Of a stretch of DNA of 64,000 bases, positions 11,730 through 27,203 are shown one piece after another; within the stretch, counting starts at the first letter, position 1, and each line of letters opens with the position of its first letter. The notes below the pieces were generated by a model. That model saw nothing but the letters and a program-made list of their open reading frames with translations. It was not told the DNA's origin and made no database searches. The translations under genes were made by a program, and so were the position numbers. The stretch is from Ruegeria sp. HKCCSA071. GTDB lineage: Bacteria > Pseudomonadota > Alphaproteobacteria > Rhodobacterales > Rhodobacteraceae. Where the stretch lies: positions 1,364,001 through 1,428,000 of the forward strand of contig NZ_JAEDOX010000001.1 in the NCBI RefSeq assembly GCF_017872555.1, written 5' to 3'.

Positions 11730-12602
11730 TCAATCGTGACTGCGAAATATCCGCGTCGAGGAGAAAAACCGCTCGAGTTCCTCGATGCGTTCCTTGCTTT
11801 CTTCCCACCGGGCCTCTTGCACTTCAGCGATCAGTGTTTCCGAAATCAGCTGTAGCGCTATTGTTGAGTCCCAGCTGGAGGGCGCCTCGACCAGTGCATG
11901 AAACGTGTAATTGGCGGTCTTGCCAATCGGTGATCCCCACTGGTCGGTGAACAGGATAACCGTCACGCCGCGGCTGGATGCGACCTGCGCCAGTTTCTCG
12001 AGATAGGCCTCGTATCGGCGTATATCAAATATCACCAGAACCGAGGTTTCATCCATATCAAGCAGGTACTGCGGCCAAACGTTTGCCGAATTGCCCAGCA
12101 TCGTCACATTGGGTCGAATAATCTGCATGTGATTGAACAGATAGTCCGCATTTGAACGCGTGATACGCCCGCCCACGACGTAAAGATGGCGATCCGTGTT
12201 GGCCAGAAGCTGGGCAACGGTGTCGAACATCTCTTTGTCCAGACGTTCCAGCGTGTGGCGCATATTTGTCCAAACGGCCTGTGCAAACCGCGTTGTGGGA
12301 TGTTCCACCTCGTCATCCACAACCCAGGCATCCCGTTTCGAGATCGGCTTTTTGATTTGTGCAGCCACCTCCTCTCGCAGGGCGTCCTGCAGAGCGGGAA
12401 AACCGTCAAAACCCAGCTTGCGTGCCATACGTATGACCGTCGGGGTCGAGACCTGCGCCGCAGCGGCCAGCTTGGTGATCGATTGCAAGCCGGTCATCGG
12501 ATAATCTTGCAAGAGTACCGAGGCCAGCTGCCGTTCTGACCGTGTCAGATCGTCAAGCTCTTCCTGGATCCGCTGTTTGACAAGTTTCGCAACGGTGGCC
12601 AT
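11730..12602 (-). CDS. RpiR-family transcriptional regulator (HTH + SIS domain)
   Basis: A 290-residue regulator. The N-terminal RpiR helix-turn-helix spans residues ~1-80 (LTRSERQLASVLLQDYP, then TKLAAAAQVSTPTVIRMARKLGFDGFPALQDALREEV). The C-terminal SIS-like domain (YVVGGRITRSNADYLF; VIFDIRRYEAYLEKLAQ) usually binds sugar phosphates. The ATG at 12602 has AAGG spaced five bases upstream; a GTG two codons earlier is the alternative. The gene is divergent from the amidohydrolase/TRAP/glutamine-synthetase-like cluster across 94 bases and is probably its regulator. The effector is unknown and need not be a sugar, since SIS domains in such regulators have diversified. Confidence 0.88.
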   Translation of the reverse strand: MATVAKLVKQRIQEELDDLTRSERQLASVLLQDYPMTGLQSITKLAAAAQVSTPTVIRMARKLGFDGFPALQDALREEVAAQIKKPISKRDAWVVDDEVEHPTTRFAQAVWTNMRHTLERLDKEMFDTVAQLLANTDRHLYVVGGRITRSNADYLFNHMQIIRPNVTMLGNSANVWPQYLLDMDETSVLVIFDIRRYEAYLEKLAQVASSRGVTVILFTDQWGSPIGKTANYTFHALVEAPSSWDSTIALQLISETLIAEVQEARWEESKERIEELERFFSSTRIFRSHD

Positions 12603-12626
12603 CGGCACCTTCGTATCTCAAATTTT

Positions 12627-12675
12627 TTACAGAATATGTTCGTTTGTAATTTTGTCTACAGTAATTTTCTTGACA
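12627..12675. promoter_or_regulatory. candidate operator/promoter region between the RpiR gene and the glutamylation cluster
   Basis: The 94-base divergent gap is AT-rich. It holds an inverted repeat TTACA (12627-12631) / TGTAA (12645-12649), a direct repeat GTAATTTT (12646-12653 and 12661-12668, 15-base period), and a TTGACA -35-like box at 12670-12675 pointing toward the plus-strand cluster. No good -10 was found at the right distance. Binding by the adjacent RpiR protein is inference. Confidence 0.4.
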
Positions 12676-12696
12676 GGCGTGAGGTTGCTGTAACAA

Positions 12697-13491
12697 ATGC
12701 TACTTATGTGCCACGATTCCGAGACACCAATGCTTCTACCAACCGAAGCTCCGGCAGCCCGCGTGCAGAATGCCAGCAGTCGGGCACAGTGCGTTTTGGT
12801 ATGCGAACATGCTAGCCGATTCATCCCAGCGTCACTGAACGGATTGGGCCTGACTGAGGACGCTGCATTGTCTCATGCAGCATGGGATATTGGCGCATTG
12901 GCGCTTTCCGTCGAACTGATGAAGGCTTTGGACGCGCCGCTGGTTCATTCCTGCATCAGCCGACTTGTTTACGACTGCAACCGCTCGCCTGAACGTGCAG
13001 ATGCAATGCCGCAGGTAAGCGAAGTGTTTTCCATCCCCGGCAACGAAAACCTGACGGACGCTCAACGCGCTCAAAGGGTCCGCGAGGTTTATGAGCCGTT
13101 CAAACAATTGTTGTCGTCTACTCTGGACGCGCGGGACCGGCCGCCTGTCGTTGTCACGATGCACAGTTTCACTCCCGTCTACAACGGTAGGACCCGATCA
13201 GTCGAATTGGGCATTCTTCATGACGAAGACGACCGGGCAGCCCAACTTATGCTGCGCTGCGCCAAGGACTCGGGTCTGAAAGCCGCGTTGAACGAACCTT
13301 ACTCTGCCACGGATGGCGTCACGCATACGTTGCAGGAACATGCGATCAGTCGGGGGCTTCCGAATGTCATGGTCGAAGTTCGAAACGATCTTATCGACAC
13401 ACCAACGGGAGTAGACCGTATTGCCGGGATTCTGACGCCGATCCTGCAAACAGTCATTAATGCGTATTCGCACACAGAGGCGAAACAATGA
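12697..13491 (+). CDS. N-formylglutamate amidohydrolase family protein
   Basis: A 264-residue protein of the FGase family (PF05013-like). Conserved landmarks: CEHASRFIP near residue 36, SRLVYDCNRSPERADAMP, an HSFTPVYNG metal/substrate segment, RSVELGILHDED, THTLQEHA and the C-terminal NVMVEVRNDLI. Characterised members (HutG) release formate from N-formylglutamate, that is, they cut an amide on glutamate. Here there are no histidine-degradation genes. Instead it heads a cluster with a glutamine-synthetase-like ligase and two dehydrogenases, so it may hydrolyse a different glutamyl amide; this is inference. The ATG at 12697 could be replaced by ATG at 12706 or 12730. A 16-base gap precedes the TRAP genes. 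Confidence 0.85.
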   Translation: MLLMCHDSETPMLLPTEAPAARVQNASSRAQCVLVCEHASRFIPASLNGLGLTEDAALSHAAWDIGALALSVELMKALDAPLVHSCISRLVYDCNRSPERADAMPQVSEVFSIPGNENLTDAQRAQRVREVYEPFKQLLSSTLDARDRPPVVVTMHSFTPVYNGRTRSVELGILHDEDDRAAQLMLRCAKDSGLKAALNEPYSATDGVTHTLQEHAISRGLPNVMVEVRNDLIDTPTGVDRIAGILTPILQTVINAYSHTEAKQ

Positions 13492-13507
13492 GAGTTGAGG
13501 TATCGAG

Positions 13508-14029
13508 ATGAAGTTCTTGCGGGGCTACGTGGCGGTCATTGATCGAACGAACCGCTGGATCGGGCGCGTCGTCATGTACGGCATATTCGTCATGATGGGT
13601 ATTCTGTTCTGGTCTTCGGTCTCGAAAACCTTTTTCGTGCCGTCGCTCTGGACGCTCGAGATGGCTCAGTTCGCCATGGTGGCCTACTACATGCTTGGTG
13701 GCCCTTATTCGATCCAGATGGGGTCAAACGTGCGAATGGACCTGCTTTATGGCGAATGGTCTCATCGCCGCAAGGCCTGGACGGATGCCTTCACAGTCGT
13801 ATTCCTGATCATCTATCTGGTCATCTTGCTGTGGGGGGGATGGGACAGCCTGATGTATTCCTTCCAATATGGTGGTGAGCGCAGCGCGACGATCTGGCGA
13901 CCCTACCTTTGGCCGGTCAAGCTGATCATGGTTATCGGTATCTTCTTGATGCTGCTGCAAGCCATATCAGAATTGTTCAAAGATATTCTGCGCCTGTGCG
14001 GCGACGATATCCCGCGCGAGGTAATCTGA
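13508..14029 (+). CDS. TRAP transporter small permease (DctQ)
   Basis: A 173-residue membrane protein with four predicted helices, the DctQ layout. The segments are MYGIFVMMGILFWSSVSKTF, a MAQFAMVAYYMLGGPYSIQ helix, AFTVVFLIIYLVILLWGGWDS and LIMVIGIFLMLLQAISELF. Conserved DctQ features (GGPYSIQMGSNVRMDLLY, RRKAWTDAF) are present. It pairs with the DctM permease, whose ATG overlaps this stop by one base (TGATG), so translation is coupled. Part of a TRAP system that drives uptake with a sodium or proton gradient. Confidence 0.9.
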   Translation: MKFLRGYVAVIDRTNRWIGRVVMYGIFVMMGILFWSSVSKTFFVPSLWTLEMAQFAMVAYYMLGGPYSIQMGSNVRMDLLYGEWSHRRKAWTDAFTVVFLIIYLVILLWGGWDSLMYSFQYGGERSATIWRPYLWPVKLIMVIGIFLMLLQAISELFKDILRLCGDDIPREVI

Positions 14030-15354
14030 TGTCATACGAGATGATTGCCTTGCTGATGTTCGCATCAATGATGCTTATGATGCTGACCGGCCAGCGCGTC
14101 TTTGGTGCAATCGGCTGTGTCGCTGTGGTTTCGGCCTTGTTCCTATGGGGAGATCGGGGCGGCTACGATCTGGGTTTTGCCGCTGCGATCAAGGTCATGA
14201 AGTGGTACCCGCTGCTGACACTGCCCATGTTCATTTTCATGGGATACATCCTTTCCGAAAGTCGGATCGCAGATGACCTTTACAAGATGTTCCATGTCTG
14301 GATGGGCGGCTTGTCCGGTGGTCTGGCTGTCGGAACCATCGGGCTGATGGTTCTTATCTCGGCAATGAACGGTTTGTCCGTTGCAGGTATGGCAATCGGC
14401 GCTACGATCGCCTTGCCGGAATTGCTGCGCCGGAACTATGACAAGCGCATGGTGACCGGCGTCATTCAGGCCGGATCATCCCTTGGGATTCTGGTGCCAC
14501 CATCCGTTGTTCTGGTTCTTTATGCGATGATCGCGCGGCAACCCGTCGGCCAGTTATGGCTCGCTGGAGTGATACCCGGGCTGATGATGGCGGCCATGTT
14601 CATCATCTACATTGTCATCCGTTGCCGCATCAACCCATCGCTCGGCCCGGTCCTGCCCGCGGAAGACCGCGACATTCCGTTGCGAGAAAAGCTGCTGCTG
14701 TTGCAAGCCGGATTGTTACCTTTGGGCATTTTCATGGTGATGATGGTCCCTTTTGTTAACGGCTGGACTTCGTTGGTGGAATCCTCCGCCATCGGAGCCA
14801 CAACGGCCATGCTGGCGGCCTTTCTGAAAGGACGGCTGACACGCACGGTGTTCGAGAATTCTATTCGGCACACCCTGGGCATCTCGTGCATGTTCATGTG
14901 GATCATTCTAGCGGCTCTGGCTTTTGGCGCTGTCTTCGACGGGTTGGGCGCGGTCAAGGCAATCGAAAGCCTGTTCACCGAAAAGCTGGGTCTTTCCCCG
15001 TGGATGATTCTGATTCTTATGCAGCTCAGCTTTATCCTGATGGGTACGTTTCTGGACGATACTGCCATGCTGGTTATCGTCGCGCCGCTTTACGTTCCGC
15101 TGGTGGGTGCGCTTGGATTTGATCTTATCTGGTACGGCGTGCTTTATACGATCACCACGCAGATCGCGTATATGACGCCGCCATTCGGCTATAACCTGTT
15201 CCTGATGCGCGCGATGGCCCCCCCGGAAATTTCGCTGCGCGATATCTACAGTTCGATCGTTCCTTTTGTTCTGGTGATGGTCTGCGCCTTGGCCATAATC
15301 ATCATCTTTCCTGAAATCGCGCTATGGCTGCCGAATTATGTCTATGGAAATTAA
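14029..15354 (+). CDS. TRAP transporter large permease (DctM)
   Basis: A 441-residue polytopic protein (about 12 helices) of the ion-transporter superfamily. DctM-type features include RVFGAIGCVAVVSALFLWGD, FIFMGYILSESRIADDLY, SAMNGLSVAGMAIGATIALPELLRR and GVIQAGSSLGILVPPSVVLVLYAM. The ATG at 14029 is chosen for the TGATG overlap with dctQ and because it yields the normal short N-terminus (MSYEMIALLMFASMM). It is the translocation channel receiving cargo from the DctP protein encoded 57 bases downstream. Confidence 0.92.
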   Translation: MSYEMIALLMFASMMLMMLTGQRVFGAIGCVAVVSALFLWGDRGGYDLGFAAAIKVMKWYPLLTLPMFIFMGYILSESRIADDLYKMFHVWMGGLSGGLAVGTIGLMVLISAMNGLSVAGMAIGATIALPELLRRNYDKRMVTGVIQAGSSLGILVPPSVVLVLYAMIARQPVGQLWLAGVIPGLMMAAMFIIYIVIRCRINPSLGPVLPAEDRDIPLREKLLLLQAGLLPLGIFMVMMVPFVNGWTSLVESSAIGATTAMLAAFLKGRLTRTVFENSIRHTLGISCMFMWIILAALAFGAVFDGLGAVKAIESLFTEKLGLSPWMILILMQLSFILMGTFLDDTAMLVIVAPLYVPLVGALGFDLIWYGVLYTITTQIAYMTPPFGYNLFLMRAMAPPEISLRDIYSSIVPFVLVMVCALAIIIIFPEIALWLPNYVYGN

Positions 15355-15411
15355 GTCACAAGACCCCGGAAAGGGGCGAAGTTCAGCAAGACTAAACAGA
15401 GGAGAAAGACA

Positions 15412-16449
15412 ATGACTACAAGACGCAGATTTCTAAGCTCCGCCGGTCTGGCGGGGGCCGCCACACTGGCCTCTCCTGCGATCGTCAAAGCGCAATCCGC
15501 CATCAAGTGGCGGTTCCAGACCTATGCCGGTGGCGCATTGGGCGAGCATGTGACCAAGCCAGCCATCGATTACATCAACGCCAATGCCAATGGCGAACTT
15601 GAGATCGAACTGTTCTATGCGGACCAGATCGTTCCGACGGGTGAACTGTTCCAGGCCCTGCAACGCGGCACGATTGACGGTGTACATTCGGACGACGATT
15701 CCATGGCTTCGCCTACTCCGCTGCGTCAATTCGGTGGTTATTTCCCCTTCGCGACCAAGCATATTCTAGACGTTCCGGTGCTGTTCAACCAATACGGTCT
15801 GGCTGATATCTGGCGCTCGGAATATGAGAAGGTTGGTGTGACGTGGCTATCGGCAGCGGGTCAGGACCCCTGCAACTTCAACACCAAAAAGGAAATCAAA
15901 AGCCTTGGCGACCTGGATGGGCTGAAGCTCTATACCTTCCCGACGGCCGGGCGTTTTCTGGCCAAGTTTGGTGTTGTACCAGTCAATATCCCATACGAAG
16001 ACGCGGAAGTGGCCGTGCAAACCGGTGAGTTGGACGGAATGGCCTGGTCGGGCATCACTGAAGATTACACTGTTGGCTGGGCCAATGTGACCGACTATTT
16101 CCTGACCAACAACATCTCAGGCGCGTGGATCGGGTCCTGGTTTGCAAACCAGGAACGCTGGGCCGAGTTGCCTGACCACCTGAAATCGGTTGTGATGGCA
16201 GGTGTCGAAGCAGGCCACACCTATCGTAACCAGTGGTATTGGGGCGGCGAAGCGGCCTTGCGCGCGAATGGCGACAAACTGCAGTTGCGACAGGTTCCGG
16301 CGGCAGAATGGAAAGAAGTGGAAAATGCCGCTATCGAATTCTGGGACGAGGTCGCACAGGAAGGCGAAATTCACCAGAAGATCGTTGGCATCTTCCGTGA
16401 GTATAACTCGGTCATTAACCAGGCCGGCGCACCTTACACATTCGATTGA
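15412..16449 (+). CDS. TRAP transporter solute-binding protein (DctP)
   Basis: A 345-residue periplasmic receptor. It has a Tat-like signal (TTRRRFLSSAGLAGAATLAS, cleavage after AKAQ-like VKAQ near residue 28). The ligand-binding region is recognisable: LGDLDGLKLYTFPTAG followed by FGVVPVNIPYEDAEVAVQTGELDGMAW. In most characterised TRAP receptors the position after GLK(L/V/I) is an arginine that clamps the ligand carboxylate; here it is tyrosine. The ligand may therefore lack a carboxylate or be bound differently. GAGGAG Shine-Dalgarno ahead of the ATG. Gene order Q-M-P, then a hairpin, then the glutamine-synthetase-like gene. Confidence 0.9.
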   Translation: MTTRRRFLSSAGLAGAATLASPAIVKAQSAIKWRFQTYAGGALGEHVTKPAIDYINANANGELEIELFYADQIVPTGELFQALQRGTIDGVHSDDDSMASPTPLRQFGGYFPFATKHILDVPVLFNQYGLADIWRSEYEKVGVTWLSAAGQDPCNFNTKKEIKSLGDLDGLKLYTFPTAGRFLAKFGVVPVNIPYEDAEVAVQTGELDGMAWSGITEDYTVGWANVTDYFLTNNISGAWIGSWFANQERWAELPDHLKSVVMAGVEAGHTYRNQWYWGGEAALRANGDKLQLRQVPAAEWKEVENAAIEFWDEVAQEGEIHQKIVGIFREYNSVINQAGAPYTFD

Positions 16450-16458
16450 TATCAAAAC

Positions 16459-16483
16459 AGGGGCGCTGTCATGCGGCGCCCCT
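16459..16483 (+). terminator. intercistronic hairpin after the solute-binding protein gene
   Basis: AGGGGCGC (16459-16466) and GCGCCCCT (16476-16483) form a perfect 8-bp stem with a 9-base loop, ten bases after the dctP stop. No T-run follows, so it may stabilise the receptor mRNA or partly attenuate transcription before the ligase gene rather than end the operon. Confidence 0.55.
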
Positions 16484-16506
16484 ACTCAACGCATGAGGTT
16501 TGTTTC

Positions 16507-17868
16507 ATGACCGCAACTCTGACTTTCGAAACCCTGAAATCGCTTGTCGCAGACGGCGCGATCGACACAGTATTGGTTTGCATGGTTGACATGCAGGGTC
16601 GGTTGATGGGCAAGCGTTTTCATGCAGGTCATTTTGTGGCTGGCGCGTGGGAAGAGACGCATTGCTGTAACTACCTGCTGGCCACGGATCTCGAGATGGC
16701 GACGCCGGATGGGTATGCCTCGACCAGTTGGGAGCGTGGTTATGGCGACTATGTGATGAAGCCAGACCTTAGCACATTGCGCCCGGTGCCCTGGCTGGAA
16801 GGTACCGCGATGGTCATGTGCGATGTGCTGGATCACCACACCCATGAGGAAGTGCCACATGCGCCGCGCTCGATCCTGAAAAAGCAGGTGAACCGCCTGA
16901 AGGCGATGGGGTATGAGGCGATGTGCGCCACCGAGCTGGAATTCTTCCTGTTCGCGAAAAGTTTTGATGCAATCCGCAAGGAAGGGTTCCGCGATCTGGA
17001 ACCGATCTCGGGTTATAACGAAGATTATCACATTCTGCAGACCACCAAGGAAGAGCATGTGATGCGCCCGATCCGGAACCACCTGTGGGATGCGGGCATT
17101 CCGGTCGAGAACACCAAAGGTGAGGCCGAGGCCGGGCAGGAAGAACTGAACATCAAATATGCGCCTGCGATGGACACGGCAGAGTATCACTCGATCGCCA
17201 AGAACGCGGTGAAAGAGATCGCCTGGCAGCACGGTCATGCGGCGACCTTCCTGCCAAAATGGCATCATGAAAGGGTGGGCAGCTCGTCTCATGTGCATCA
17301 GTCGCTTTGGAAGGATGGGCAACCGGCGTTCTATGACGCGGCGGATGAGCTGGGCATGTCGGCGTTGATGAAAAGCTATATGGCCGGCCTGCTGAAATAC
17401 GCCGCTGATTACACGTATTTCATGGCACCGTACATCAACAGCTACAAGCGGTTCATGAAGGGCACCTTTGCACCGACGCGGATCATCTGGTCGGTAGACA
17501 ACCGCACGGCCGGGTACCGCCTGTGCGGGGATGGAACCAAGGCGATACGGGTCGAGTGCCGTATTCCGGGATCGGATATGAACCCCTATCTGGCGATTGC
17601 AGGGATGTTGGCGGCCGGGATCGCAGGGATCGAAGAAGGGCTGGAGTTGCAGCCGCCGACAAAGGGCGATGTCTATCAGGGCGAGACGGGAATGATCCCC
17701 GGCACGCTGCGTGCAGCACGAAACGCCCTGCAAGGTTCGGCCATGTTACGCGCGGCCATGGGCGATGACGTTGTCGATCACTATACCCGCGCGGCTGAGG
17801 TTGAAATCGAGGAGTTCGAACGCGTGGTAACCGATTGGGAAATTGCCCGCGGCTTTGAGCGGGCTTGA
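16507..17868 (+). CDS. glutamine-synthetase-like gamma-glutamyl amide ligase
   Basis: A 453-residue GS-superfamily enzyme. All catalytic signatures are present: VDMQGRLMGKR (N-terminal beta-grasp loop), TELEFFLF near residue 142, GEAEAGQEELNIKYA near 205, PKWHHERVGSSSHVHQSLW, NSYKRF, the NRTAGYR arginine segment near 332 and ECRIPGSDMNPYLA near 350. It should catalyse ATP-dependent coupling of an amine to the gamma-carboxyl of glutamate. The sequence style is that of GS relatives that use amines (IpuC, PuuA, GMAS, GlnA4 type) rather than housekeeping GlnA, and the neighbours are an aldehyde dehydrogenase, an alcohol dehydrogenase and an amidohydrolase. The ATG at 16507 has GAGG at -12; an in-frame upstream ATG overlaps the hairpin. 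The amine substrate is inferred to be an amino alcohol. Confidence 0.85.
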   Translation: MTATLTFETLKSLVADGAIDTVLVCMVDMQGRLMGKRFHAGHFVAGAWEETHCCNYLLATDLEMATPDGYASTSWERGYGDYVMKPDLSTLRPVPWLEGTAMVMCDVLDHHTHEEVPHAPRSILKKQVNRLKAMGYEAMCATELEFFLFAKSFDAIRKEGFRDLEPISGYNEDYHILQTTKEEHVMRPIRNHLWDAGIPVENTKGEAEAGQEELNIKYAPAMDTAEYHSIAKNAVKEIAWQHGHAATFLPKWHHERVGSSSHVHQSLWKDGQPAFYDAADELGMSALMKSYMAGLLKYAADYTYFMAPYINSYKRFMKGTFAPTRIIWSVDNRTAGYRLCGDGTKAIRVECRIPGSDMNPYLAIAGMLAAGIAGIEEGLELQPPTKGDVYQGETGMIPGTLRAARNALQGSAMLRAAMGDDVVDHYTRAAEVEIEEFERVVTDWEIARGFERA

Positions 17869-17880
17869 GATGGAGGAAGC

Positions 17881-17929
17881 GAGGGGCCAGCCCCTTCGCG
17901 CACCCCGGGATATTTATGGCCAGATGAAG
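17881..17929. repeat. REP-like intergenic repeat, copy 1
   Basis: A small GGGGC/GCCCC hairpin is followed by CACCCCGGGATATTTATGG and CCAGATGAAG. The second half recurs in inverted orientation at 60241-60265, where it also adjoins a GC-rich hairpin. The shared block (CCCGGGATATTTA, GGCCAGATGAAG) is over 25 bases with one or two differences. It lies in the gap between the ligase and aldehyde dehydrogenase genes. Confidence 0.7.
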
Positions 17930-17963
17930 CAGGGATCCTGCTCTCTTTAGAGATGGAGTGGAT

Positions 17964-19346
17964 ATGGCGCAGATGTTGCAATGTGTCTCGCCGATTGATG
18001 GATCGGTTTATGCGGAACGCGAGGTGCTGTCGCGGGAGGCTGCGTTTGAGGGCGCGGCGCGGGCACGGGCGGCACAGGCCGGATGGGCAGCGCGGCCGTT
18101 GCAGGAGCGGATTGATCTGGTGATGGCGGGTGTCGCGGCTGTTGGCGCGATGAATGATGAGATTGTTCCGGAACTGGCCCATATGATGGGCCGCCCAGTG
18201 CGCTATGGCGGCGAGTTTGGGGGATTCAACGAACGCGCCAGCCATATGGCAGAGATCGCCGAGACGTCATTGGCCGATATTGCCGTGGGCGAAGACGAGA
18301 CTTTCAAACGCTATATCAAGCGCATTCCGCATGGGGTGGTCTTTGTGGTTGCACCCTGGAACTATCCTTACATGACGGCAATCAACACGGTGGCGCCCGC
18401 GCTGATCGCGGGCAACACGGTTGTTCTGAAACACGCGACCCAGACCCTGTTGGTCGGTGAACGCATGGCGCAGGCGTTCCATTCGGCAGGGGTGCCCGAA
18501 GACGTGTTCCAGAATGTGTTCCTCAGCCACGACGTGACCAATGACCTCATCGCGGGCAACGCGTTCGACTTTGTGAACTTCACCGGTTCGGTCGGCGGCG
18601 GTCAGGCGATGGAGCGTGCGGCGGCGGGTACCTTTACTGGCGTGGGCACCGAACTGGGCGGCAAGGATCCGGGTTACGTTATGGACGACGCCGATCTGGA
18701 CGCGGCGGTTGATACGCTGATCGACGGCGCGATGTTCAATTCGGGCCAGTGTTGCTGCGGGATCGAGCGGATTTACGTTCACGAAAGCCTTTACGATGAC
18801 TTTGTCGCCAAGGCGGTAGAGATCGTGAAGGGTTATAAGCTGGGCAATCCGCTGGATGCCGAAACAACCATAGGTCCTATGGCCAATGTGCGTTTCGCTG
18901 ACGAGGTGCGCGCGCAGATTGCCGAAGCGGTTGAGGCCGGCGCGGTCGCGGATATCGACCCCTTCCCCGAGGACGACGGTGGCGCATATCTCACGCCACA
19001 GATCCTGACCAACGTCACCCATGACATGCGGGTGATGCGGGACGAAAGCTTTGGCCCGGTTGTGGGCATCATGAAAGTGTCCTCGGATGCCGAGGCCATC
19101 GCGCTGATGAATGACAGCGAGTTTGGTCTGACAGCCAGCCTTTGGACCCGCGATGTGGACCGCGCGGCGCGTGTGGGCGACCAGATCGAGACCGGCACCG
19201 TCTTCATGAACCGGGCCGACTATCTGGACCCTGGCCTGTGCTGGACCGGTTGCAAGAATACCGGGCGCGGCGGTGGTCTTTCGGTCATCGGCTATCACAA
19301 TCTCACCCGTCCAAAATCCTACCACCTGAAGAAGGTCACGGGCTAA
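17964..19346 (+). CDS. NAD(P)-dependent aldehyde dehydrogenase
   Basis: A 460-residue ALDH-superfamily enzyme oxidising an aldehyde to a carboxylate. Visible: VAPWNYPY, the cofactor-binding FTGSVGGG, the ELGGKDPG glutamate motif, the catalytic cysteine in SGQCCCGIERI (three consecutive Cys), DESFGPVVG and TGTVFMNR. The ATG at 17964 is supported by GGAG five bases upstream; a GTG two codons earlier is less likely. It lies between the gamma-glutamyl ligase and the iron alcohol dehydrogenase, so in the proposed pathway it oxidises a gamma-glutamylamino aldehyde. Compact for the family (about 475-500 usual). Confidence 0.9.
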   Translation: MAQMLQCVSPIDGSVYAEREVLSREAAFEGAARARAAQAGWAARPLQERIDLVMAGVAAVGAMNDEIVPELAHMMGRPVRYGGEFGGFNERASHMAEIAETSLADIAVGEDETFKRYIKRIPHGVVFVVAPWNYPYMTAINTVAPALIAGNTVVLKHATQTLLVGERMAQAFHSAGVPEDVFQNVFLSHDVTNDLIAGNAFDFVNFTGSVGGGQAMERAAAGTFTGVGTELGGKDPGYVMDDADLDAAVDTLIDGAMFNSGQCCCGIERIYVHESLYDDFVAKAVEIVKGYKLGNPLDAETTIGPMANVRFADEVRAQIAEAVEAGAVADIDPFPEDDGGAYLTPQILTNVTHDMRVMRDESFGPVVGIMKVSSDAEAIALMNDSEFGLTASLWTRDVDRAARVGDQIETGTVFMNRADYLDPGLCWTGCKNTGRGGGLSVIGYHNLTRPKSYHLKKVTG

Positions 19347-19413
19347 GGACGACGGCCTGCTCGGGGCTGACCCCCTCACCCGCGCAGGTCTCAAATCACA
19401 AAGGAAACCTGAC

Positions 19414-20559
19414 ATGACACTTGTTGGAAACTGGTCCTATCCGACCGCAATCAAATTTGGTGCCGGGCGCATCAAGGAACTGACCGCAGCCTGTGCCACA
19501 GCCGGGATAAAGAAACCCCTGCTGGTCACGGACAAGGGGTTGGCCGATCTGCCGATCACCGCGGCGACGCTGGATATTATGGAGGCGGCTGGTCTGGGCC
19601 GCGGTGTATTCAGTGACGTGGACCCAAACCCGAATGAGAAGAACCTCGACGCAGGCGTTGCGGCATACAAGGCCGGTGGACATGATGGTGTGATTGCCTT
19701 TGGCGGCGGCTCGGGCCTGGATCTGGGCAAGATGGTCGCCTTCATGTGCAGCCAGACGCGCCCGGTATGGGACTTTGAGGATATCGGCGACTGGTGGACC
19801 CGCGCCGATGCGGATGCAATCGCGCCGATCATTGCGGTTCCAACGACTGCGGGGACCGGATCCGAAGTTGGCCGCGCCAGCGTCATCACAAATTCCGAGA
19901 CCCACGCCAAGAAGATCATCTTCCACCCCAAAGTCCTGCCGACGGTGGTGATCTGCGATCCTGAACTGACGGTTGGAATGCCCAAATTCATCACCGCAGG
20001 CACCGGTCTGGACGCCTTCGCGCATTGCGTCGAAGCCTATTCGAGCCCGCATTATCACCCGATGAGCCAGGGTATTGCACTGGAAGGTATGCGTTTGGTG
20101 AAAGAATATCTGCCGCGCGCCTACGCAGATGGCAGCGACATTGAGGCCCGCGCCCAGATGATGAGCGCGGCGGCCATGGGCGCAACCGCCTTCCAGAAAG
20201 GTCTGGGTGCGATCCATGCCATGAGTCACCCGGTCGGCGCGCACTTCAACACCCATCACGGCACCACCAATGCGGTCTGCATGCCTGCTGTGCTGGATTT
20301 CAATGCTCCCGCCATAGCAGATCGTTTCCAGCAGGCTGCCGCCTATCTGGGCATCAACGGTGGCTTTGACGGCTTCCGCGCTTTTGTACAGGAATTCAAC
20401 GACAGCCTTGGCATCCCGCGAAAGCTGGCAGAATTCGGCGTAACCGAGACCTCAATCCCAACCCTCGTCGAAGGCGCAATCATTGACCCTTCATGCGGCG
20501 GGAACCCGATTGAGCTGACCAAAGAAAACCTCACTCAGCTGTTCAAAGCAGCGCTATAA
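19414..20559 (+). CDS. iron-containing alcohol dehydrogenase (group III)
   Basis: A 381-residue NAD(P)-dependent alcohol dehydrogenase. The nucleotide-binding GGGSGLDLGK is near residue 95. The metal site residues lie in GLDAFAHCVEAYSS and in AIHAMSHPVGAHFNTHHGTTNAV, giving the usual Asp and three His. AAGGAA Shine-Dalgarno. It is last in the cluster and followed by a strong hairpin. Group III enzymes oxidise or reduce many alcohols (ethanol, propanediol, glycerol, lactaldehyde). With the ligase and ALDH it is inferred to oxidise the hydroxyl of a gamma-glutamylated amino alcohol. Confidence 0.92.
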   Translation: MTLVGNWSYPTAIKFGAGRIKELTAACATAGIKKPLLVTDKGLADLPITAATLDIMEAAGLGRGVFSDVDPNPNEKNLDAGVAAYKAGGHDGVIAFGGGSGLDLGKMVAFMCSQTRPVWDFEDIGDWWTRADADAIAPIIAVPTTAGTGSEVGRASVITNSETHAKKIIFHPKVLPTVVICDPELTVGMPKFITAGTGLDAFAHCVEAYSSPHYHPMSQGIALEGMRLVKEYLPRAYADGSDIEARAQMMSAAAMGATAFQKGLGAIHAMSHPVGAHFNTHHGTTNAVCMPAVLDFNAPAIADRFQQAAAYLGINGGFDGFRAFVQEFNDSLGIPRKLAEFGVTETSIPTLVEGAIIDPSCGGNPIELTKENLTQLFKAAL

Positions 20560-20567
20560 AAATGCAA

Positions 20568-20594
20568 GCGCCCGGCAGGGAACCTGCCGGGCGC
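20568..20594. terminator. strong hairpin ending the glutamylation cluster
   Basis: GCGCCCGGCAGG and CCTGCCGGGCGC form a perfect 12-bp stem with a GAA loop, nine bases after the alcohol dehydrogenase stop. It lies between two convergent genes and could serve both. There is no long T-run on either side. Confidence 0.7.
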
Positions 20595-24610: not shown

Positions 24611-27118
24611 TCAACCGTCCTTGCGGATGGTTTCGTTTTTCGGATCGTATGGGCTGTCGCAGGTGACAACCGCATCCCACAACTTGTCCTGCATCTTGAC
24701 CTTCAGCTTGGTGCCTTCGACCGCCAGTTCAGGCTTCACATAGCCCATGCCGATCGACTTCTCGAACGCGACCGAATAGCCGCCCGAGGTCAGGCGACCT
24801 ACACGCTCGCCTTCCGGCGTATACAGCGCCTCGCGGCCCCACGGGTCAGCATCGGCCGGACCGTCGATCAGCAAGGTGCAGCACTTGACGCGCACACCGG
24901 TCTCTTCCAGCTTGGCTTTGCCGTGGAAGTCCTTGGACAGGTCGACAAAGCGCGGCAGGTCGGCTTCCAGCGGGGTCGCGTCGCGGCCCAGTTCGGTGCC
25001 AAAGGCGCGATAGGATTTCTCCTGACGCAGCCAGTTCTGGGCACGGGCACCGACCAGCTTCATGCCGTGCTTTTCACCGGCTTTTTCCAACAGATCGAAC
25101 AGGTAGTTCTGCATCTCGATCGGATGGTGCAGTTCCCAACCTAGCTCACCGGTATAGGCCACGCGGATCGCGTTGACCGGGCACATGCCCAACTCGATCT
25201 GACGCGCCGACAGCCAAGGGAAGCGTTTGTTGGACAGTGCAGTTTCCGGGTCGGCGTCCTTGATAACTTCTTTCAGAACGTCACGCGACTTGGGTCCGGC
25301 GATGGCGAAGACGCCCCATTGCGTGGTCACGTCCTGGATCTCGATGTAACCGAACTCCTCCATCTTGTCCTCGGCCGCTTTAAGCAGGTAATCGGCGTCG
25401 TACTCGGTCCATGCACCGGCAGAGACGATGTAGTAGTTGTTCTCGCCATTGCGGACGATGGTGTATTCGGTACGAGTGGTGCCGTGCGCAGTCAGCGCGT
25501 AGGTCAGGTTGATGCGACCGACCTTGGGCAGTTTGTTGCAGGTGAACCAATCCAGGAACTGGGTGGCACCGGGGCCTTTGACGACATGCTTGGTGAAGGC
25601 CGATGCGTCGATCAGGCCAACGCCTTCGCGGATCGCCTTGGCCTCTTCGACGGCATATTGCCACCAGCCGCCACGACGGAACGAGCGTGCTTCCTTGTCG
25701 AAATTCTCGGGCGCGTCCAGCGGACCGAAATAGTTCGGACGTTCCCAGCCATTGACCCAGCCGAACTGAGCGCCACGCGCTTTCTGGCGGTCGTACGCCG
25801 GAACGGTACGCAGCGGACGGCAGGCTTCACGCTCTTCATCCGGGTGGTGCAGGATATAGACATGCTCGTAGCATTCTTCATTCTTGCGCGCCGCGAACTC
25901 GGTGGTCATCCAGTTGCTGGAATAGCGTTTGGGGTCCAGCGAGGCCATGTCGATCTCGGCTTCGCCATCGACCATCATCTGTGCCAGATAATAACCGGTG
26001 CCGCCCGCAGCGGTGATGCCAAAGCTGAAACCCTCGGCCAGCCACATGTTACGCAAACCCGGGGCCGGACCAACCAGCGGGTTACCATCCGGCGTATAAC
26101 AGATCGGGCCGTTGAAATCATCCTTCAGGCCGGAATCGGCACAGGACGGCACGCGCTCGGCCATTGCCATGTACTGCTCGGCGATCCGGTCCAGATCCAG
26201 CGGAAACAGGTCGGCGCGGAAGCTGTCCGGAACGCCGAATTCGAACTGCGCAGGGGCGCCGTGTTCATAGATGCCCAGAATCCATCCACCGCGTTCTTCA
26301 CGCGCATAAGATTCGTTGTCGGCGTCGCGGACAACGGGGTGCTCGGGGTTGCCTGCTTCGCGCCATTTGACCAACTCGGGGTCTTTATCCATGACGATAA
26401 AGGTATGTTCCACCGGGATGGCAGGCATTTTGATGTCCAGCATCTTGGCGGTGCGCTGCGCGTGGTTGCCCGACGCGGTCACAACATGTTCGGCGGTGAT
26501 CACGACCTGTTCGTCGGAAGGCACCAGGTTGCCTCCCTTTTCGACCATCTTGGTGCAAGTCACTTCCCAGTGCGTGCCGTTCCAGTGGAACGCGTCAGCC
26601 TGCATCTTGCGCACGATTTCGACGCCACGTTGACGGGCCCCCTTGGCCATTGCCTGAGTCACATCGGCAGGGTTAATATAACCGTCCTCGGTGTGATAGA
26701 TCGCGCCCTTCAGATCCGATGTCTCGATCAGCGGCCAGCGTTCCTTGATCTGGTCCGGGGTCAGCCACTCGTATTTCACATCACAGGTTTCGGCGGTCGA
26801 GGCATAGAGCATGTATTCGTCCATACGCTCTTGCGTCTGTGCCATGCGCAGGTTGCCCACAACCGCGAAGCCCGCATTCAGGCCGGTTTCTTCCTCAAGC
26901 GTCTTGTAGAAATCCACGGAATACTTGTGGATATGGGTCGTCGCATAAGACATGTTGAACAGCGGCAACAGGCCCGCGGCGTGCCAGGTGGACCCGGACG
27001 TAAGTTCGTCCCGTTCGATCAACATCACATCGTCCCAGCCTGCTTTGGCCAGGTGATAGGCAATCGAGGTCCCAACGGCGCCGCCGCCTACGACCAATGC
27101 TTTGACTTGGGTTTTCAT
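24611..27118 (-). CDS. dimethylglycine/sarcosine dehydrogenase-like flavoprotein with GcvT domain
   Basis: An 835-residue two-part enzyme. Residues 1-~400 are a DAO-type FAD domain with VVGGGAVGTSIAYHLAKAG and the SGSTWHAAGL motif, whose His is the covalent FAD attachment site in mammalian dimethylglycine dehydrogenase. The central linker has FGWVNGWERPNYFGP. The C-terminal ~430 residues are a GcvT/aminomethyltransferase domain (IREGVGLIDASAFTKHVVKG; VAYTGELGWELHHP) that would pass the methyl-derived one-carbon unit to tetrahydrofolate. It probably demethylates dimethylglycine, sarcosine or a related N-methyl amino acid. The ATG at 27118 puts the FAD motif at residue 8 with GGGGAG upstream. 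Single gene between terminators. Confidence 0.87.
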   Translation of the reverse strand: MKTQVKALVVGGGAVGTSIAYHLAKAGWDDVMLIERDELTSGSTWHAAGLLPLFNMSYATTHIHKYSVDFYKTLEEETGLNAGFAVVGNLRMAQTQERMDEYMLYASTAETCDVKYEWLTPDQIKERWPLIETSDLKGAIYHTEDGYINPADVTQAMAKGARQRGVEIVRKMQADAFHWNGTHWEVTCTKMVEKGGNLVPSDEQVVITAEHVVTASGNHAQRTAKMLDIKMPAIPVEHTFIVMDKDPELVKWREAGNPEHPVVRDADNESYAREERGGWILGIYEHGAPAQFEFGVPDSFRADLFPLDLDRIAEQYMAMAERVPSCADSGLKDDFNGPICYTPDGNPLVGPAPGLRNMWLAEGFSFGITAAGGTGYYLAQMMVDGEAEIDMASLDPKRYSSNWMTTEFAARKNEECYEHVYILHHPDEEREACRPLRTVPAYDRQKARGAQFGWVNGWERPNYFGPLDAPENFDKEARSFRRGGWWQYAVEEAKAIREGVGLIDASAFTKHVVKGPGATQFLDWFTCNKLPKVGRINLTYALTAHGTTRTEYTIVRNGENNYYIVSAGAWTEYDADYLLKAAEDKMEEFGYIEIQDVTTQWGVFAIAGPKSRDVLKEVIKDADPETALSNKRFPWLSARQIELGMCPVNAIRVAYTGELGWELHHPIEMQNYLFDLLEKAGEKHGMKLVGARAQNWLRQEKSYRAFGTELGRDATPLEADLPRFVDLSKDFHGKAKLEETGVRVKCCTLLIDGPADADPWGREALYTPEGERVGRLTSGGYSVAFEKSIGMGYVKPELAVEGTKLKVKMQDKLWDAVVTCDSPYDPKNETIRKDG

Positions 27119-27203
27119 AACCGGGCGTCTCCCCTTGAAATCAGTTGACACCATATGGCGTACTTAAGGGGGATAGCGCGACATTCATCCGACCAGTGAT
27201 ATG

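Follow-up and report, generated by a model that had tools for sequence, protein, structure and literature searches.

Several operons have been described in which ethanolamine is joined to glutamate before it is oxidized. In Phaeobacter sp. MED193, Westermann et al. (2023) assigned such a route to the operon MED193_10021-10056, whose genes encode, in order, an RpiR regulator, a gamma-glutamylglycine amidohydrolase (GGAH), EtoV, EtoW, EtoX, an ethanolamine gamma-glutamylase (ETAGA), GAADDH and GETADH (PMC10132767). That source lists five of the eight operon proteins as raised on phosphorylethanolamine, and reports that recombinant EtoX binds ethanolamine with a Kd of 7.9 µM and does not bind phosphorylethanolamine, phosphocholine or glycerol phosphates. 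It also cites Vetting et al. (2015) for Chromohalobacter salexigens and Agrobacterium, and gives the share of ocean bacteria that have the operon’s receptor as about 5-10% (PMC10132767). For C. salexigens, a 2022 review tabulates the families PF00120, PF00465, PF00171 and PF05013 beside SCO1613, SCO1611, SCO1612 and SCO1615 (PMC9397018). In Streptomyces, there is direct evidence that GlnA4 is a gamma-glutamylethanolamide synthetase, and Krysenko et al. (2019) proposed an FGase-family last step (PMC6529630). Uptake of ethanolamine by a tripartite ATP-independent periplasmic (TRAP) transporter has been in print since 2015, as cited in PMC5812351 and PMC4646407; the former, a 2018 review, describes ethanolamine as an unexpected ligand for a TRAP system. 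Here, we describe an eight-gene locus in a 64,000-nt stretch of Ruegeria sp. HKCCSA071 (contig NZ_JAEDOX010000001.1, positions 1,364,001 to 1,428,000; “the window”). With a probability that we put at about 0.85, it is a copy of the TRAP-type ethanolamine gamma-glutamylation operon already described in Phaeobacter and Chromohalobacter.

The first line of evidence in support of this reading is gene content. The layout is identical, gene for gene, to that of MED193_10021-10056: the same eight genes in the same order, with the same assigned route. This likeness is to the published gene list rather than to MED193 sequences, and the window differs in coming from Ruegeria and in having a receptor of the rarer of two clades (clade B, described below). 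C. salexigens has the same four enzyme families, and a homolog of the window receptor, Csal_0678, has been seen bound to ethanolamine (4UAB). The S. coelicolor GlnA4 pathway (SCO1611-1615), compared by its description and not by sequence, has the same proposed steps, including the FGase-family last step; it differs in that TRAP transport is not mentioned in that description. A reading of the window from its sequence alone had proposed this route, served by its own TRAP importer, and the same assignment has been published for the MED193 and C. salexigens operons, with the enzymes also in S. coelicolor. The sequence-only reading had further suggested novelty for two parts of the system, the FGase-family last step and uptake by TRAP. 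The former was already in print in 2019, 2022 and 2023 (PMC6529630, PMC9397018, PMC10132767), and the latter in 2015, with MED193 EtoX as a later case (PMC5812351, PMC4646407, PMC10132767), so neither claim of novelty holds. Thus, the system is already known, and the window contains a marine Ruegeria copy of a published operon.

The gene set itself is as the sequence-only reading described it: an open reading frame check found all eight genes, seven forward and RpiR divergent, intact at the positions claimed, and Pfam agrees with each of the family calls by wide margins (Table 1). Consecutive forward genes are separated by 16, -1, 57, 57, 89 and 67 bp, which fits a single operon. The ligase is more likely to start at 16507 than at 16471, since the alignment with its closest solved relative begins at 16507.

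The second line of evidence is conservation. A search with the ligase gave 587 relatives, and the best 80 loci among them were analyzed, a sample that leans toward close relatives. This neighborhood survey of the ligase clade, which had been suggested for the locus, found all eight genes in the window’s order and orientation, divergent RpiR included, in 51 of the 80 loci. Five more (L021, L022, L024, L029 and L032) have all eight plus a sodium/phosphate (Na/Pi) cotransporter gene between DctP and the ligase. Six loci have DctM and DctP in an incomplete set; five of these are short or cut by a contig end (L027, L039, L055, L083 and L088), and L072 truly lacks the aldehyde dehydrogenase (ALDH). 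The remaining 18 do not have DctM and DctP together; 12 of them represent a second version of the enzyme set, discussed below, and three of the other six (L014, L019 and L077) lie on contigs 4-5 kb long, with L077 retaining DctP. The eight-gene arrangement is not due to chance. Annotated copies of the same eight genes are carried on plasmids in Paracoccus denitrificans PD1222 and Rhodobacteraceae bacterium SC52. The ligase is present at ≥83% identity in 53 of 54 genomes of the genus, counting the source genome, and the receptor (E ≤ 1e-90) in at least 160 of 295 genomes sampled from the family and 27 of 398 sampled from the phylum. The hydrolase (12697-13491 in the window, with its relatives) varies far more than the adjoining enzymes, with ~50% identity when Ruegeria species with >90% identical ligases are compared.

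The third line of evidence comes from the receptor. Its nearest solved relative is 4uab/4xf5 (7.7e-143), the runner-up being 125 orders of magnitude weaker (2.5e-17). 4UAB is Csal_0678 with ethanolamine, in which Glu220 holds the ligand and aromatic side chains surround its carbons (PMC12410723). Csal_0678 lacks the carboxylate-selecting Arg of TRAP receptors, for which Phe is the commonest replacement (PMC4646407). In the Arg-equivalent column, the window receptor has Tyr174 and its clade A relatives have Phe; Arg occupies this column in each of the 11 other DctP proteins that the genome encodes. Glu217 is conserved in all 64 receptor sequences compared and, with a numbering offset of 3, should correspond to Glu220 of Csal_0678. 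The DDDSM motif is likewise invariant, and Asp94-96 are the same in both clades.

The fourth line of evidence comes from the enzymes, and above all from the ligase, which has a glutamine synthetase (GS)-like fold. It aligns end to end with 5dm3 (1.3e-239), its closest solved relative. The metal-site motifs are retained, Phe replaces the flap Glu of the genome’s GlnA, and there is no counterpart of the FDGSS loop. The flap Glu and the loop are likewise missing from the genome’s other GS paralogs. The catalytic motifs had been called intact; this stands for the catalytic core, whereas the ligase lacks the features that form the ammonia site in a genuine glutamine synthetase. An ammonia or methylamine ligase, making glutamine or gamma-glutamylmethylamide, would account for the fold and for matches to the glutamine synthetase type I (TIGR00653, 9.5e-74) and type III glutamate-ammonia ligase (TIGR03105, 3.3e-69) models, but both scores are far below their cut-offs (248.8 against 429.15 bits and 233.5 against 469.6 bits, respectively). 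Moreover, the solved glutamate-methylamine ligase 9qur is distant (4.9e-38), and the alcohol and aldehyde dehydrogenases would be left unexplained. We rejected this explanation on the model scores, the distance from 9qur, and the missing flap Glu and FDGSS loop, and consider it very improbable.

The PuuA and IpuC pathways share the principle of a glutamate tag, with other amines and other downstream enzymes. A Puu-type putrescine pathway at this locus would fit that principle and the matches of the ALDH to aminobutyraldehyde and PuuC models, which are below cut-off. However, the ligase scores 195.5 bits where the gamma-glutamylputrescine synthetase model (NF045547) requires 650, and so falls below the PuuA-type cut-off; there is no amine oxidase among the operon families, and the closest solved relative of the receptor is itself a receptor for ethanolamine. 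The ligase score and the missing amine oxidase family led us to reject a putrescine pathway, the chance of which is negligible. The canonical Eut pathway was also rejected because the genome has no match to EutB (PF06751), for which an E. coli control was positive.

The other enzymes are less specific. For the FGase-like protein, the nearest solved structure is 2odf (Atu2144, 1.2e-65), no NCBIfam model matches, and three more PF05013 proteins are encoded elsewhere in the genome. The ALDH carries the catalytic motifs ELGGK and GQCC, and among the matches listed (25 of 44), all equivalog models score below their cut-offs. The best NCBIfam match of the iron-containing alcohol dehydrogenase (Fe-ADH) is 4-hydroxybutyrate dehydrogenase, at 359 bits where 500 are required.

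How would the pathway work? The periplasmic receptor EtoX (DctP) would bind ethanolamine, and DctQM would import it. The GS-like ligase would then join it to glutamate at the expense of ATP, giving gamma-glutamylethanolamide, which the Fe-ADH would oxidize to the aldehyde and the ALDH to gamma-glutamylglycine. Finally, the FGase-type hydrolase would release glutamate and glycine. Glutamate would thus be a tag, recovered at the end, that masks the amine and holds the aldehyde in bound form. Before substrate is present, the operon is probably under repression by RpiR. The 88-bp gap between the RpiR and FGase genes contains a tandem 15-mer (12646-12676) ending in TTGACA; the window and five loci of the same RpiR clade retain it with no more than one mismatch. 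This repeat is a putative RpiR operator.

The receptor slot of this operon holds one of two clades. Receptors were extracted at ≥50% identity and 80% coverage; 17 of the 80 loci gave none, leaving 63 sequences and that of the window. Clade A has 56 of the 64 members (≥79.7% identity within the clade) and clade B has eight (≥80.6%): the window, Ruegeria sp. HKCCD7303, Roseovarius mucosus, R. gaetbuli, Pseudohalocynthiibacter, Antarcticimicrobium, Sulfitobacter and Primorskyibacter. Within the genus, the receptor (E ≤ 1e-60) occurs as a single copy in 48 of 54 genomes, four at 91-100% identity (clade B) and 44 at 62-64%. We found no published account of a two-clade receptor slot in open-licence papers. 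In the family sample, 12 of 160 receptors among the matches listed have ≥81% identity, and three have 69-73%; a Shinella plasmid carries a 73% receptor within a full operon. These intermediates indicate that, beyond these genera, the two clades are less clearly separated.

Which points weigh against reading the locus as an ethanolamine operon? First, the window receptor belongs to a clade only 60.6-67.6% identical to the common one, and Csal_0678, although gammaproteobacterial, sides with the common clade (81-92% identity to clade A and 63-65% to clade B; 63.5% to the window receptor). Hence, the window receptor is of the same family as Csal_0678 and of the sister clade to its own. Second, four differences are fixed between all 56 clade A and all eight clade B sequences: W151Q, H155N, F174Y and W195Y. 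By alignment, position 174 is the Arg-equivalent column, a known TRAP selectivity position. Third, the Leisingera and Phaeobacter loci fetched all have clade A receptors. Fourth, the C. salexigens route is “demonstrated” according to PMC10132767 and “predicted in silico” according to PMC6529630. Fifth, a consensus scan of the gap between the RpiR and FGase genes found no forward sigma-70 promoter, which also counts against the putative operator. Sixth, we infer the substrate, every enzyme step and the regulation of the window copy from orthology. The direct evidence is on orthologs: in MED193, EtoX binds ethanolamine and phosphorylethanolamine induces operon proteins, and in Streptomyces, GlnA4 is a gamma-glutamylethanolamide synthetase.

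The fixed receptor differences could mean that the chemistry is the same and that the main substrate is another small amino alcohol (L-alaninol, serinol or 3-aminopropanol) chosen by the clade B receptor. The change at the selectivity position is consistent with this, as is 4xf5, which has the same sequence as 4uab and whose ligand is reportedly 2-aminopropanol. However, within Ruegeria, the ligase, ALDH and Fe-ADH are ~90-96% identical whether they lie next to a clade A or a clade B receptor, which suggests the same substrate inside the cell, and neither Glu217 nor the DDDSM motif varies. Another main substrate is unlikely, though the diverged receptor of the window copy leaves it some chance; ethanolamine is the best supported of the four candidate amino alcohols.

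Clade B was defined by clustering of receptors, before trees of the other genes were made. Quick trees, with support from the SH-like approximate likelihood ratio test (SH-aLRT) only, were then built from the 62 rows with receptor, DctM and ligase. In the receptor tree, clade B is one side of a branch with SH-aLRT 100. The trees of the neighboring genes reject it as a group, with approximately unbiased test values (p-AU) of 0.001 for DctM and 7e-67 for the ligase. From this conflict, we conclude that the receptor gene was exchanged in place within the operon. DNA identity between the window and the clade A loci L016/L013 is 54-74% in six 200-base bins (15401-16600) and 80-90% in the five bins that follow (16601-17600). 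On the upstream side, values within DctM range between 66 and 88%. A sharp border is seen only on the 3′ side of the receptor gene; on the 5′ side, DctM also varies. It is possible, although rather doubtful, that clade B replaced the usual receptor in place more than once and so altered or broadened the set of amino alcohols accepted, or shifted the affinity. The exchange part of this proposal is supported by the conflicting trees, and the four fixed differences include the one at the selectivity position; the change of ligand is hypothetical.

Clade B receptors also occur outside the full operon. In two of the four clade B carriers of the genus (G009 and G042), the receptor is accompanied by DctQ and DctM alone, on a contig other than that of the ligase. 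L112:7807-10809 and L114:7843-10825 encode a clade B DctQ-DctM-DctP with no further operon gene within the 17 kb examined. More distant receptors (52-54% identity) at L123:5144-8963 (Tistrella mobilis pTM4) and L137:8233-12546 occur with DctQM and a DeoR-type regulator, with no ligase in the stretch. This receptor group may serve another neutral or amino-alcohol substrate, given the FGGY kinase and FAD oxidoreductases near the Tistrella receptor.

The second version of the enzyme set, which has no TRAP genes, is exemplified by L116:2134-16001 and is also seen at L010, L020, L025, L028, L033, L040, L045, L046, L049, L062, L071 and L079. The L116 type has FGase-GS-ALDH-Fe-ADH with a sulfatase/phosphodiesterase-family gene (nearest model PehA, 435 of 900 bits), and its further neighbors are an inositol-monophosphatase-family gene, an Na/Pi cotransporter, a DeoR regulator and an SBP_bac_5 ABC importer. 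Within the stretches examined, the phosphatase gene is found at 11 of the 12 TRAP-less loci of the survey, DeoR at seven, a PehA-like gene at five, Na/Pi at five and a substrate-binding protein (SBP) gene at two. This content suggests that ethanolamine would be released inside the cell from a phosphoester, and the TRAP-less version is thus a possible “Pho-independent” route. The cotransporter inserted in five of the TRAP-type loci is 53-55% identical to the L116 copy, again linking the pathway to phosphate. One genome (G043) has both versions. Among the open-licence papers listed, nothing specific on a phosphate-linked second module was found.

The features of the locus are listed in Table 1. 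Terminator-like sites over the whole region are not above chance (8 observed, 8.8 expected). A few kb from the operon, a large frame at 24611-27154 on the reverse strand looks by eye like an FAD oxidoreductase-GcvT-type fusion (dimethylglycine/sarcosine dehydrogenase type).

Table 1. Genes and other sequence features of the eight-gene locus, in window coordinates.
Feature	Position	Strand	Basis or remark
RpiR/MurR-family regulator	11730..12608	-	HTH_6 2.4e-17, SIS 5.2e-17; divergent from operon
Tandem 15-mer ending in TTGACA, candidate RpiR operator	12646..12676	+	Repeat detected in sequence
FGase-family hydrolase, assigned gamma-glutamylglycine amidohydrolase in orthologous operons	12697..13491	+	PF05013 1.9e-40
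TRAP small permease DctQ (EtoV)	13508..14029	+	PF04290 5.4e-22
TRAP large permease DctM (EtoW)	14029..15354	+	PF06808 5.5e-65; start overlaps DctQ stop
TRAP receptor DctP (EtoX), rarer clade B	15412..16449	+	DctP Pfam 2.1e-23; nearest solved 4uab/4xf5
GS-like ligase, assigned ethanolamine gamma-glutamylase	16507..17868	+	PF00120 (Gln-synt_C) 2.2e-96; 5dm3 1.3e-239
ALDH, assigned aldehyde to gamma-glutamylglycine	17958..19346	+	PF00171 (Aldedh) 8.6e-114
Fe-ADH, assigned gamma-glutamylethanolamide dehydrogenase	19414..20559	+	PF00465 5.1e-48, PF25137 3.2e-45
Strong hairpin with T tail between operon and convergent gene; marks boundary	20568..20594	-	12-pair stem

What are the implications for the organism and its relatives? 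First, ethanolamine from membrane lipids is a marine nitrogen source. Second, four generically named enzymes and a “C4-dicarboxylate-type” transporter gain a concrete role. Third, if clade B did replace the usual receptor with a change of ligand choice or affinity, the swap of one receptor gene would retune the whole pathway, and the operon would be modular at the uptake step.

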